This document shows positions 42,046 through 52,227 of a stretch of 64,000 nt of DNA, one piece after another (position 1 is the first letter of the stretch; each line of letters begins with the position of its first letter). The position numbers were made by a program, and so were the translations under genes. The notes below the pieces were generated by a model that ran no database searches, was not told the DNA's origin, and saw nothing but the letters and a program-made list of their open reading frames with translations. Location: assembly GCF_964355755.1 (NCBI RefSeq), contig NC_092673.1, positions 3,229,001 to 3,293,000 on the forward strand. The letters run 5' to 3'. This DNA is from Antedon mediterranea (Eukaryota > Echinodermata > Crinoidea > Comatulida > Antedonidae).

Positions 42046-45812
<3,767 letters not shown>

Positions 45813-47077
45813 CTTACACTAAAGTGTACTTAAGAACAGTCTATACAAAAGTTGGGTAGTATGCCTTTACCTAACAGTCTATACCAGAATGTGGTAGCCT
45901 AACCAGTTTACAAAGTTAGGTAACCTGCCTAAAGTTGCATGGCCAAAATGTCCATACCAAAGTCTGTCCGGTACCCTAACACTTTATACTATAATAGAAG
46001 TCTGTACACCTGGTAATACCGAATGTAAAAACATATGAAACAATAAATGTACAAGTAGTTATTGAATTTCTTATTACCTTGGTGTCTTTAAAGCTCGTGG
46101 CAGACATATTTAATAATTCAAAACTTTCAGATCAAAGTTACACAAGTTGCAACATTCATTTTAGCAACTGCTACATCAAATCATACTCACACTTGGCCAT
46201 TATAAAACACATTTACTGAAACACTTGATACTTTAATAACACGACAATAAATAAATATACTTTTTTATATAAATTGATGTTAGGTGAAGTTGTCGGCAGA
46301 TGAAACAGTGTGCGTAAAATTGTGAGCACGGTATGAGCAGTATCTAAATACATCACTAACAGCACAAACAATTCATTGCACATTGAAAATTGTTTAGTAC
46401 AGGAGTTATCAGTAACATATATATTGCAATAATAAATTGAGCGGTACTGTATATTATATGTCTATATTACACATTTATATATATATATATATATGATGAA
46501 GGGCTAGTGTTGCCCGAAAGCTCTGCTAACTTTTCTGGCTGTTTTACTTCTCGTTTTGATTTAGCTTTTCGCTTTTATTTTGTATCTCCATTGAGATCCA
46601 GCCACTGATACCCACAGCATTGTCATTTTTTCAGTAATTTGTCTTTGGATTTATATATATATATATATATATAAATCAAAGAGCTGCATAGGCAGGATAT
46701 AGAAAAAAATCAAGATCAAATAAGTTAAAACTGCCTCAATATACGTTTATATATATATTTATATGTATATACTGTATATCTCAATTCAATTCAAATATGT
46801 GACATTGTACGAATATTTTACACAATTTTGTAACAAGTTACCTTTGATTAAAACATATATTTAAAAATTGCACAGCCTCTTATCTTTAATTTTCCTGGTC
46901 TTTAAATAATGCTTGGAGGAGCCAAATAAAAAATACTATAAATAAAATAAAAATATAGTCAAATTAGGTTGCATATTAAAACAGAGATATTATAGTATAA
47001 TATCTCTATGATTAAATAATAAAAAAAAAAAAATAACCAGTAGAATTTAGTTTGTCCATGAGAACGTCCATTTTAAT
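45813..47077. other. Intergenic between oxidase 2 and P450; TE remnants
   Basis: After the oxidase 2 poly(A) signal (46042) there is a retroelement-like segment at about 46470-46640, flanked by TA microsatellites (46478-46493, 46653-46672). It contains 'gatgaagggctagtgttgcc' directly followed by 'cgaaagctc'. A 25-bp perfect palindrome (agagatattatagtataata-tctct) lies at about 46984-47008. No gene is seen. Confidence 0.5.
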
Positions 47078-50000
47078 TTATGCAAGTTTCTCTACAAACC
47101 GGGCCATCAATTGACCTTTAGGTCGCGACACAGGTAACCATTTGTATTCAAGATCCTGATCACTTGATACAGTCCAGTCATAGTTGCTAAGCATAAATGT
47201 ACAAACTTCCTGTTTAAACAAAAGATACAGGAACGAATACTTGAGTTTTATAAGTCAATTTCAAATTCTTTATCCTTTTTCTTTACAAATTCAAGCCTAG
47301 TCATTACCTTCACTTTATTATATGCCGCCAATAATAATAGTTTGTGCGTTACAAATGATTGGTTAGTAAATGTACAGTTAAAAGAGAAAATCTTCTGAAA
47401 ACATTGAATACTCTACCTTAATTATTTTCTTTATGAGTTGTATGCCAATACATTTTCTTTTTCCACCACCATAGCAACACAATAGTTTTTCCAATTCATC
47501 TCCACTGTTAGAATAAACAATAAAACAATCTCAATGCTTGTCAAATCAACTACAAAATTTAATTGTATTAATGTATTACAAAATGTCTTACTTTTCTTCC
47601 CATCTTTCTGGCTTAAATTCTTCTGGATCTGGAAAAACTTTAGGGTCTCTGTGTGCTGCGTGGGTCATATAGATGACAGCTGTACCCTGTTGTACTTGTA
47701 TTCCATCTAAGACACAACTCTGAGGAGAAACAGAAATGATTACGGCTGTATATATTCAAGATTACTGAATCAACTAAAATGTACACAGTACGAACATTTA
47801 AAGATGTATTGTCCCCCAAATACTTGAAAAATGAAGATTAATTAAATCAGACTTTTAATAAAGTTAATCACTTAGAAAAAGACTAAATAAATGGTTACAG
47901 TAAATTCAACCAAAAACCCATTATGTTTTGCTTTAAATTACAGTTTTTTCAGCTAAATAATTTGTTTTTCAATCCAATTTTTGGTCAAAGTAAATAACTA
48001 TTATGTGACAATACTGTATTCAACAACAAAAATGTTAAAAAAATTATTTTTCAGAGGGGGCAATATATCTTTAATGCCAAACACTGAATCAACTTATAAT
48101 TTTAAAAGTTTCTAACAGAAAAACAGTTCACATTTACTTTTCTAGTTAGACGTCTGCCTCCGAAAAATGGTGGCCATAACCTTTGAACTTCTAGTAGAAC
48201 ATGATCTAAATATTTGCTGTCTACACAGGCTTGGTGACGCTGTGAAGACTAGAATGAAAAAATAAAAAAATTATCATTCATTTATTGTTTATTATTGGGG
48301 TGAAAGTAGAGGTATTGGGTGAAAGTTGAGGTATTGGGTGAAAGTTGAGGTATTGGGGCCATGGTAGCAGTCTGATGAAACATTTGTAATATAATGTAGG
48401 AATTGGTGGTGATGATGGTAAATTTGTAGTGCAGATGGTAAATTGGTAATGATAGTGAAGAATTGGCGGTGTGTTTGGTAATTTGTAACACATGAATTAT
48501 GGTGTTCATTAATTGTGGTATTAATATGTATCTTAATTACACATCTAGTAGGTTCACTGATACCCTATGACATCATTTTGAAGATTTTTGCATAATATGG
48601 CAAACATGTCAACAAGCAAGTTTGAGAACTTCTTCAATACAGCTACCCACCTTATCTTGACCTGACAAAGCCAACGTGAAGGATGTTAAAATGGAAGCAA
48701 ATGCCTTTGGAACTAAGGCAGATATGAATAACAACAAATGATTTTCAACTTCAGTTTGATTCTGAAAGCCAGCTTCAGTTATCCGATGAAGAAAATCTCC
48801 TTTATTTGCTTTTTCTAAACGATCTCTGATTATTTCTATAAGTTTACCCTGAAAAAACAAATAATGCGTTGAAATAATCATTAAATCGCAAAATCAACCA
48901 GAAAAATTGATTATTTGAATTACAAAATACATTTTAAATGATTATTCCTGAAAGCTAAATATGTAAATAGTACATTGTGTTCACTCCGGAATAACGTTTT
49001 ACGATGTTTGGTTTGAGGTAATTAAAAAGGTAATTATGTGATAGTCATGAGCATCATAAATATTAATGAGCCTTGTGCTACGACCCGTAATAAATATATT
49101 TATCATTGAAATAATTTCATCTATTGGACAAAATACAGTACCTTAGCCTCTACAGCTTTGTTGTATCCAGATTTGGATCCCCAATAAGGCATTCTTAAGC
49201 TCAACGGTACGGAAATAATACCTAGAAAGAAAATTGTTTGAATTTCATTAATATTTGCTAATATTCTGGGTACAACCAGGGTCACTCTTCCCTGGTACAA
49301 TACACAGTCTAAGCCTGTTTTGAAATGATTATTAGCAGTTTATTTATTTTCTTGTTCTGATTAATCAATTTATGTTTAAATTATCTTAAACAGTTGATGT
49401 ATGAATGAAAAGGAGCATCAGTAGTGTTTATACAAATATAAATTATTAAATATAGGATTAAGAAATATGTATACATATCAAATTTATTGAAGAGAGTTTA
49501 AGAAACACTAACAGCTAAAATAAGACAGGAAATGTACCAGCTAATACATAGGAAACAACCCTTCATTTTGACCAATTTTTATCTGTTGCTAATTTCAATA
49601 TTCAAAAGCTCTGTCTACACTATCAAACTTTTTATGATAAAAAAATGTGATGAGCACATGTATGGATATGATGATGTCATATCACTACCATATCTGGGCA
49701 TATCACTACCATATTTGGGTAGATCACACTTTTTTTGTCAAACTAGTTTGATAGTGTAGACAGCTTTATATCTACTAGTGTTTACTACTGTACAAAACAC
49801 TGAAAATAATTACCATGCCAATGGGTAGTTATAAGCTGGCTAAGTAGTTCGTTGACCTCATCCGAGTGATCAGGAACAACATCTAAGAAAATACTAAAGG
49901 AAAGTTCTGTAGCAAAATGTTTGAATCGTTCATATGCAGAGATCTCAGTGCTATGAAAAACAAAGAAAGAAACAGTCAAAATGACTACTACTGAAATCCA

Positions 50001-51175
50001 CCACATTGAATAGAACAGTCAATCAACTTTATTTTTCCCATTCAACTCATTTGCTGTTTATTTCAGTCTGTTCATCTCTATGGTCTGTTTAAAGATATAT
50101 TGAAAAAAAAAAAACAATTTAAAAAAAATAATAAATGCCATTTTAATGTTACGTAAAAGTTATTCACTTTGACCAAAAACTGGATTGAAAAAAATTATTT
50201 ATATGAAAAAAATGTAATTTTGTGAAAGAAATAGTTAAATTGTCTGCCATACAATGGTTTACAAAAAATTTTTTGTTGTCTTTTTATAAGTAAAATAATA
50301 ATTTTTTTTTGGCTTTTTTTTTACAGTGAACAACTTTATTAAAACTGATTTTATTCATCTTCATTTTTCATGTTTTCGGGAGACAATACATCTTTAAATA
50401 ATAGTAGGCTTATTTTTTACTGCAAATTACCCTGTGTCCATGTGACTAAAGTGCTTAACAATGAGATCTTGCAGTTTGTTGTTAAATTGTTGCACGTTAT
50501 CAGGTTGAAATATACAATGAAGGACGTCTCTAAGTCGTTTAGCTTCCTCTCCTTCCGAGAATACAACATTATCGCCATAGAGACCATGCATAAACACTTT
50601 ATAACCCATTTCAAAGTTATGACTGCATTCTGAGAAAAATTGAGATGAGACCATTAGTTCAATAAATAATATTGATTACAATTTATAACACTCTTAATTA
50701 ATTTGCATTCGTATCTATATTAAGGCCAATTAACACAGACGAGCGGTAATGGTAATAAAAATATAAGAATGTTATTCCTTATGACCATTTACAAATAACG
50801 TGGAGCGGACGGGCAGTTTCCGCTCAGGACAGATACATATTCTATGTAGGACAAGTTACGCAGTTTTTCGCTTCTTCTTTGGCCTTTTCACTCTCTTGAT
50901 AAACACATTTTGGTAAAGTTTAAGGGGTAGGATTAACCCCATCTTTAGCCTATGATACATGACCGAATACTCAAATATTATTTACCTCCAACTAAATCCT
51001 GGACACCTTGAATTGTTCCCAAAAATATTGTTGGTTTGTTTAGAAGTCTAGATTGAAAGATCCGAGTGTCGTGTTCCTGCATCTGTTTGTTCACGAACGT
51101 AATTGGATCACGGTAGAATTCTATAGACTTATCACCAACAAACATATACCCTACATTTCCTTTTGGTTGTGCCAT
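47078..51175 (-). CDS. Cytochrome P450, soluble-type, with atypical I-helix (9 exons, 417 aa)
   Basis: Exons in transcript order: 51175-50986, 50629-50431, 49950-49814, 49221-49142, 48848-48651, 48239-48138, 47719-47592, 47504-47417, 47209-47078; all GT..AG, phase closed. The heme-binding loop is YGGGKRKCIG (Cys363 as thiolate ligand; Tyr where the consensus has Phe). The K-helix ExxR is EVQR (285-288), followed by PPFFGGRRL; the meander holds FKPERW. The first codons lead straight into GNVGYMFVGDKSIEFYRDP, so there is no N-terminal membrane anchor. At the I-helix the usual (A/G)Gx(D/E)T(T/S) is absent: the segment reads LFISALVPKAFAS (residues 242-254). P450s without this acid/Thr pair usually rearrange peroxides or epoxides rather than use O2. 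The general layout recalls the CYP26/CYP120-like and CYP74-like groups, but the family is not assigned. No typical acceptor lies just before the ATG, so the start is taken as first-exon. Confidence 0.9.
47797..48073. mobile_element. TIR element 'tttaaagatgtattgtccccc' family, copy 2
   Basis: Left end tttaaagatgtattgtccccc, right end gggggcaatatatctttaa. The interior is inverted relative to the copies at 23287 and 50088. It lies in a P450 intron. Confidence 0.8.
48290..48500. repeat. Short tandem repeats in P450 intron 5
   Basis: Three copies of gtgaaagttgaggtattggg (about 48300-48357) are followed by a looser 20-30 bp periodicity of 'ggtaaattggtaatgat'-like strings. ORFs on the minus strand across it are artefacts. 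Confidence 0.6.
49605..49768. mobile_element. MITE 'GCTCTGTCTACACTATCAAACT' family (P450 intron 3)
   Basis: Left end aaagctctgtctacactatc, two array units, right end agtttgatagtgtagacagc. Confidence 0.85.
50088..50398. mobile_element. TIR element 'tttaaagatgtattgtccccc' family, copy 3
   Basis: Left end tttaaagatatattg (the C-run is lost), right end gggagacaatacatctttaaa. The interior is collinear with the 23287 copy. Confidence 0.75.
50722..50872. mobile_element. MITE 'ggccaatttacacagac' family (P450 intron 1)
   Basis: It begins aaggccaattaacacagacg with agcggtaatggtaataaaa and holds tatgaccatttacaaata, gagcggacgggcagtttccg and a single taggacaagttacgcagttt. It is the same family as 1031-1418 and 54690-54854; the right end is truncated. 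Confidence 0.7.
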
Positions 51176-52227
51176 ATTTAGTATTTAATAATTATTTATT
51201 CAGTTAAATAGTTGTTATAAACAGGAAATCAATGTTGGTATTTTGTTTGAATACAATAAGGAATGATCATAAACAAATTTATTGCACATCAAAAATTAAT
51301 AGTTTAAACTTCATGTTGACATTTATTTGGAAAAGATTTAATATTTAAATTGAAATGTAATTTAATTAGTATTAAAAATTGATATGAGGTAATAAATATG
51401 TAGTCCTATTTTATATAAATTAATTATTTGAAGGACGTGTTAAATTCACTGATGCACTAATTTACACAGAAAAAACCTGAAAAAAAGTTAAATGTTAATT
51501 ATTGTTAGAGTATTGATTTACAGTATTATAATACACATGGCTATACGAACTGGAAACACAGATATATATTGTATTTACTATTAAGTATTATTTAAAAAAT
51601 TAAAAATAATTCTATTCATGAATATTTCAATATAATAAATTAGCTTTGTTACATACAGGCAATCCTGTGTTAAATAATAAAATATTAGTTATTTCCTTTA
51701 CGATTTACATAACAATAGGCTAACCGTTTAAATCAATTTTCCTACAGCAATTTTGCCTTACCCGTAACCTGGGAGATATAGGATAGGATGTAGTTATAGG
51801 CCTAGCTAGGCAAATTAGCTAGCAGTTGGGCCTAGATGAATATCTGTATAAAATAAATTATAACTAAAAATTATGTTATTAATTTAAACATACTTACCAT
51901 ACGACATGTTTATGATCTGTTTATTAATGTTATTGTAGAACATCAACTATAACGAGAATACGGAACAATTTGCTGTTAATATCCGCTCATTTATTTCACA
52001 TTTTTTGTTTAATCGCTCTCAATAAACTGTGCTACGCTTGGTTAATTACAGGGTGGGCGTCAACAAAAACAAATTGATTGATTGGTCAGTTAAACGGGTT
52101 TCTTCATGGTTGATTGGTTTAGTTCTACAACAATTTGTGAAAATCCGCGCGAAAGTTCTACATGTTGTTTCAGAAGTCGAACAGTATTTTCTGTCTTAGA
52201 AACATTAAAAACTTAATTGTATGGAAC
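51176..52227. promoter_or_regulatory. Shared head-to-head interval between P450 and UNG
   Basis: The two start codons are about 1.05 kb apart on opposite strands, so this holds both promoters. No TATA box stands out on either side. A minus-strand ATGTCGTATG followed by gtaagtatg at 51909-51891 looks like a tiny exon with a donor, but no AG acceptor lies near the P450 ATG to join it, so it may be an upstream non-coding exon or chance. The G/C content rises slightly near 52030-52160. Confidence 0.45.

Follow-up and report, generated by a model that had tools for sequence, protein, structure and literature searches.

Introduction

The closest solved relative of the protein described here is CYP120A1 (PDB 2ve3), a soluble retinoic acid hydroxylase. 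Animal CYP26 enzymes are characterized by an N-terminal ER anchor and an AGxET-type I-helix. Two other groups of soluble P450s have dispensed with the distal pair of the I-helix. In CYP152 peroxygenases an Arg-Pro motif stands in for the acid-alcohol pair; it binds the carboxylate of a fatty acid, and this carboxylate helps split H2O2 (PMC5818669). Enzymes of the CYP74 clan, which lack the acid-Thr pair, carry a conserved Asn in the I-helix groove and a nine-residue insertion in the heme loop (PMC8124189). Among animals, CYP20 has a degenerate I-helix (PMC8110760) and thus offers a precedent for loss of the motif. The CYP16 clan, of orphan function, clustered with clan 26 in a study of cnidarians (PMC8110760); it occurs in Nematostella, Fugu and Oryzias and is missing from mammals and zebrafish (PMC5751882, PMC11184212).

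Here we describe a P450 gene in the 354 Mb genome of the crinoid Antedon mediterranea, located in a stretch of 64,000 nucleotides (NC_092673.1, positions 3,229,001 to 3,293,000) that we refer to as the window and compare with these systems.

Gene structure and genomic neighborhood

The gene occupies the minus strand from 51175 to 47078, exactly the span given by a first-pass annotation of the same DNA, and the joining of minus-strand open frames yields nine exons, introns that are all GT-AG, and a protein of 420 residues (Table 1). The spliced protein matches the Pfam P450 profile (PF00067, E 2.4e-31) and carries both EVQR at residues 288-291 and the heme loop YGGGKRKCIG. The first-pass annotation had recognized this loop and the ExxR motif correctly, with figures three too low throughout (417 for 420 residues, Cys363 for Cys366, and 285-288 for 288-291). 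The best-matching solved structure was CYP120A1, aligned over the full length (residues 4-414) at 6e-31 and 27% identity, a colinear match that makes a chance assignment to the P450s untenable.

Table 1. Features of the P450 gene and of its surroundings, in positions of the window
Feature	Position	Strand	Description
Flavin amine oxidase (spermine/polyamine oxidase-like)	43890-45812	+	Convergent neighbor; PF01593 in three exons
MITE-like elements	45459-45630, 45031-45186, 49611-49763		About 150-170 bp; inverted ends with GTCTACACTATCAAACT
Exon 9 and stop	47078-47209	-	C-terminal end LPVSRPKGQLMARF, as in CYP120/CYP26
Exon 8	47417-47504	-	Heme Cys loop
YGGGKRKCIG, residues 359-368	47444-47473	-	Heme ligand Cys366 (predicted) at 47450-47452
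Exon 7	47592-47719	-	Meander, PERW
Exon 6	48138-48248	-	Shortened J region and K helix
ExxR (EVQR), residues 288-291	48180-48191	-	
Exon 5	48651-48848	-	End of helix G, helices H and I
I-helix LVPKAF, residues 247-252	48699-48716	-	Replaces AGHETT; register may be off by one residue (low HMM posterior)
Exon 4	49142-49221	-	Short; rests on splice sites and frame
Exon 3	49814-49950	-	Open frame, splice sites
Exon 2	50431-50629	-	C-helix Arg97, heme-propionate position (alignment to CYP120A1)
Exon 1	50986-51175	-	Start codon and PxGxxG hinge; in-frame stop upstream; donor gtaaataat
Possible 5' coding exon	51899-51908 (approximate)	-	ATGTCGTATG followed by gtaagt; read from sequence, candidate only
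Uracil-DNA glycosylase (UNG)	52223 onward	+	Head-to-head neighbor; GQDPYH motif; PIP-box-like start

A profile of the CYP120/CYP26 clade, run across all minus-strand frames of 46500-52222, detected six of the called exons clearly and exons 3 and 5 weakly; exon 4 was not seen and no convincing new exon was found. Exon 5 is recognizable through its flanks, KLIEIIRDRLEK...TEVENHLLLF. Neither the consensus (A/G)Gx(D/E)T(T/S) nor the form [AG]xx[DE][TSN] that we searched occurs in any minus-strand frame of this interval, and intron 5 (402 bp) contains no J-helix coding sequence. A missed I-helix or J-helix exon in this interval was rejected as the cause of the odd features described below, and a Thr supplied from another exon, the circumstance that the first-pass annotation had set against its own reading, was not found in the DNA of 46500-52222.

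The protein opens directly at its catalytic domain, and its first 60 residues reach a best 19-residue hydropathy mean of just 0.37. The space for an upstream exon is limited by the UNG gene, which starts head-to-head at 52223, and the best corresponding mean of any upstream open frame was 1.23, too low for an anchor. No upstream anchor exon was found, the membrane anchor is absent, as had been noted at the outset, and the protein is predicted to be soluble. The candidate 5' exon would join in phase to AAAAG/GAAATG of exon 1 to give MSYGNVGY..., a change that would only exchange the start MAQPKG for MSYG and still leave the protein without an anchor.

The start of UNG lies about 0.3 kb from this candidate exon, and the two genes may share a promoter. 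One of the MITE-like elements sits within intron 3 of the P450 gene. Flavin amine oxidases of the spermine/polyamine type generate H2O2; we gave the adjacency of such a gene no weight as a context for peroxide supply, given that it is only a convergent neighbor.

Phylogenetic placement

Phylogenetic trees sampled P450s of clans 2 and 3, CYP51-like and CYP152 sequences and various bacterial P450s, with CYP74 added in the second tree. Both trees gathered our protein, cyanobacterial CYP120, the three CYP26 genes of this genome and one P450 from Chloroflexota into one clade (support 100/99 and 100/98), within which the exact placement of the protein received weaker support (84/78). Membership in the CYP120/CYP26 assemblage is therefore a direct result of the analysis. 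A sister position to CYP26 over CYP120 was not recovered in the trees. Pairwise scores were 91-138 bits to CYP120, 39-64 to CYP26, 45-61 to clan 3, 8-35 to CYP152, 14-16 to CYP74 and 14 to CYP20. The kinship with oxylipin-forming P450s envisaged in the first-pass annotation found no support: when the protein was placed against CYP74, CYP26 and CYP120, as had been proposed there, it fell with the latter two, CYP74 remained outside the clade, and the CYP74 scores are far below those of CYP120. Note however that, as expected with so long a branch, AU tests rejected none of the forced pairings, whether with CYP74 (p 0.37), with CYP26 (p 0.19) or with CYP152 (p 0.099, which is no firm rejection).

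The likeness to CYP120A1 covers solubility, full-length colinearity, the start PPGxxG and the end RPKxxL. CYP120 differs, however, in having AGHET, a full J region and the pocket residues Trp80 and Phe322, all of which our protein lacks, and the heme loop of CYP120 is the longer one. With animal CYP26 the protein shares the clade and the C-terminal LPV..PK motif, whereas the full-length CYP26 copy of this genome is membrane-anchored (the models of the other two lack the first exon) and intron positions differ; the ER anchor and the AGxET-type I-helix are both missing here. Two of the CYP26 genes form a tandem pair (C4:319300-322600 and C4:327300-330200) on the chromosome of the window gene, about 2.95 Mb away. 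The third (C9:2330200-2334400, minus strand) apparently reads HENP in the I-helix, where Asn substitutes for the Thr, the exon junction being guessed. The position of animal CYP26 in our trees, among cyanobacterial CYP120 and sister to the group of CYP120A1 (85-90/99), is relevant to where CYP26 came from.

The protein resembles CYP152 in solubility, in comparable length and in carrying a basic residue where the acid would be, or close to it, but CYP152 has its own RP motif (our protein reads VPKAF), an altered Cys loop and a separate clade supported at 100/100. Kinship with CYP152, suggested by the short J region and the I-helix Pro, was rejected: the tree is against it, and a short J region is also seen in several relatives whose motif is normal. 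Some CYP120-like P450s of Chloroflexota or picocyanobacterial type (L126, L127, L129-L131) have a short J region and keep AGHDT or AGYET, and we consequently dropped this feature as a sign of peroxide use. Orthology with CYP20 is excluded by a separate CYP20 gene at C1:39267640-39272818 (exons at 46% identity), identified with a query that we take to be CYP20A1.

The search for a bacterial donor covered 386 cyanobacterial genomes, 1292 genomes of Pseudomonadota, Actinomycetota, Chloroflexota and Bacteroidota, plasmids, viral contigs and GTDB contigs; none of the full-length relatives recovered exceeded 31% identity. The nearest sequence (L089), a cyanobacterial CYP120-like P450 at 31%, has an AGHETT I-helix and a full J region. 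With this ceiling, and with a nearest relative whose I-helix is normal, no recent bacterial donor is visible in the searched data; we therefore reject recent transfer, and the gene either has a long animal ancestry or was transferred very long ago.

Because CYP16 clusters with clan 26, the animal CYP16 lineage is probably the home of this gene, a likeness that we draw from the published description of an orphan clan, patchy among animals. The existence of this clan makes it doubtful that the family is undescribed, as the first-pass annotation had supposed. An expressed salmon gene annotated as 'putative cytochrome P450 120' (PMC10616884) hints at further animal members.

The I-helix, the substrate pocket and the heme site

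The I-helix reads LFISALVPKAFAS and, as first reported, lacks the consensus (A/G)Gx(D/E)T(T/S). In most alignments Lys250 replaces the acid and Ala251 the Thr, in a register unsure by one residue; in the alternative register Lys250 may occupy the Thr position. Relative to CYP120A1, Gly255, His256, Glu257 and Thr258 correspond to Val248, Pro249, Lys250 and Ala251, and one additional residue (Leu247) precedes these positions. Three positions of the retinoic acid pocket have also changed (Trp80 to Tyr73, Phe322 to Arg300, and Trp340 to Thr318), as has His101 (to Ala93).

Divergence extends beyond the I-helix to the entire N-terminal half of the protein. Columns conserved in the clade are retained at 2 of 10 positions in the I helix, 6 of 21 from the C helix to G, 11 of 18 in the K helix region and 7 of 10 in the Cys loop. 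Retained residues include Arg97, Glu288, Arg291, Arg301, Arg344, Arg364, Cys366 and PERW. From this pattern we infer that heme is bound through Cys366; since the proximal side is retained, heme-thiolate chemistry should be possible.

Evidence for selection

The gene is single-copy, with no paralogue in the genome. Its frame is intact across the nine exons, splice sites are clean, and there are no stops. In both trees the branch of the protein measures about 2 changes per site. When neutral substitution was simulated on the coding sequence and stops were scored, change at 8% of sites left it stop-free in 1% of the trials and change at 20% in none. The open frame, the branch length and the simulation together indicate that selection acted until recently, and with the frame intact a long-dead pseudogene is unlikely. 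Relaxed constraint is possible, given that divergence is spread over the N-terminal half.

Proposed chemistry and alternative explanations

Our preferred reading, held tentatively and with somewhat less than even confidence, is that this intact single-copy gene encodes a soluble P450 of the CYP120/CYP26 assemblage, probably a CYP16, that would bind heme via Cys366 and be driven by peroxide without a redox partner. Proton delivery to O2 on the iron depends on residues that appear to have been lost here, Gly having been replaced by Val248, the acid by Lys250 and Thr by Ala251, and without them the NADPH/O2 cycle of the CYP26 cousins is most likely not run. A ready-made peroxide, either H2O2 or an organic hydroperoxide, would be the most likely oxidant, and the substrate is presumably lipophilic. 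Lys250, whose sequence position suggests proximity to the iron, might bind a carboxylate or aid O-O splitting; by analogy, it could act as the Arg of CYP152 does. The first-pass annotation had read solubility and the missing distal pair as signs of peroxide chemistry without O2, which is fair, and had tied this to CYP74, a kinship that our trees do not support.

A somewhat unlikely but serious alternative is that the protein is still an O2 monooxygenase in which water, the substrate or Lys250 substitutes for the acid-Thr relay. Such an enzyme could be reduced by, for instance, the domain of P450 reductase that faces the cytosol, and would hydroxylate a retinoid-like or other lipid. The characterized neighbors, CYP120A1 and CYP26, are monooxygenases, and certain P450s that have lost the Thr, such as P450eryF and CYP7-type enzymes with Asn, continue to use O2. 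Here, however, neither the acid nor the Thr nor the groove Gly is preserved, a Pro lies adjacent and a residue has been added, and a protein with neither an anchor nor an evident mitochondrial signal has no clear redox partner.

We consider it unlikely, though a possibility to be taken seriously, that the protein is a pseudoenzyme that has kept the P450 fold and its thiolate heme in order to sense, store or transport a lipid, a gas or heme itself. Retention of the structural heme-binding residues alongside loss of the distal catalytic ones agrees with this explanation, as do the very long branch and the altered retinoic acid pocket, but a mere binder might not need the thiolate ligand and the complete ERR triad that are retained here.

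An oxylipin-forming P450 of the CYP74 or CYP5/CYP8 type is improbable. The missing acid-Thr pair and solubility resemble CYP74 in a general way and the AU test leaves the pairing with CYP74 standing; against this, CYP74 falls outside the clade with very low scores, and its hallmarks are missing, LFISALVPKAFAS having no groove Asn and the heme loop no nine-residue insertion, which excludes membership in CYP74 itself. A recently dead or dying gene, to which the long branch and the lost catalytic residues might point, is very improbable for a complete frame of nine cleanly spliced exons, when 8-10% neutral change nearly always leaves stops.

Implications for animal P450s

Few animal P450 clans still lack an assigned role, and CYP16 is one of them. 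If the gene described here is a CYP16, the intact heme site, the missing anchor and the missing distal pair predict a peroxide-using or non-monooxygenase protein. If CYP16 proteins generally lack the anchor and the acid-Thr pair, the gene would be another member of an orphan family; otherwise it would be a strong variant. That a conserved soluble animal family of clan 16/26 abandoned O2 activation, with a peroxygenase or peroxide isomerase evolving, independently of both CYP74 and CYP152, out of retinoic-acid hydroxylases, is a broader proposition that we regard as quite doubtful at present. If true, this natural animal P450 peroxygenase would bring to three the independent losses of O2 activation, after those of CYP74 and CYP152.
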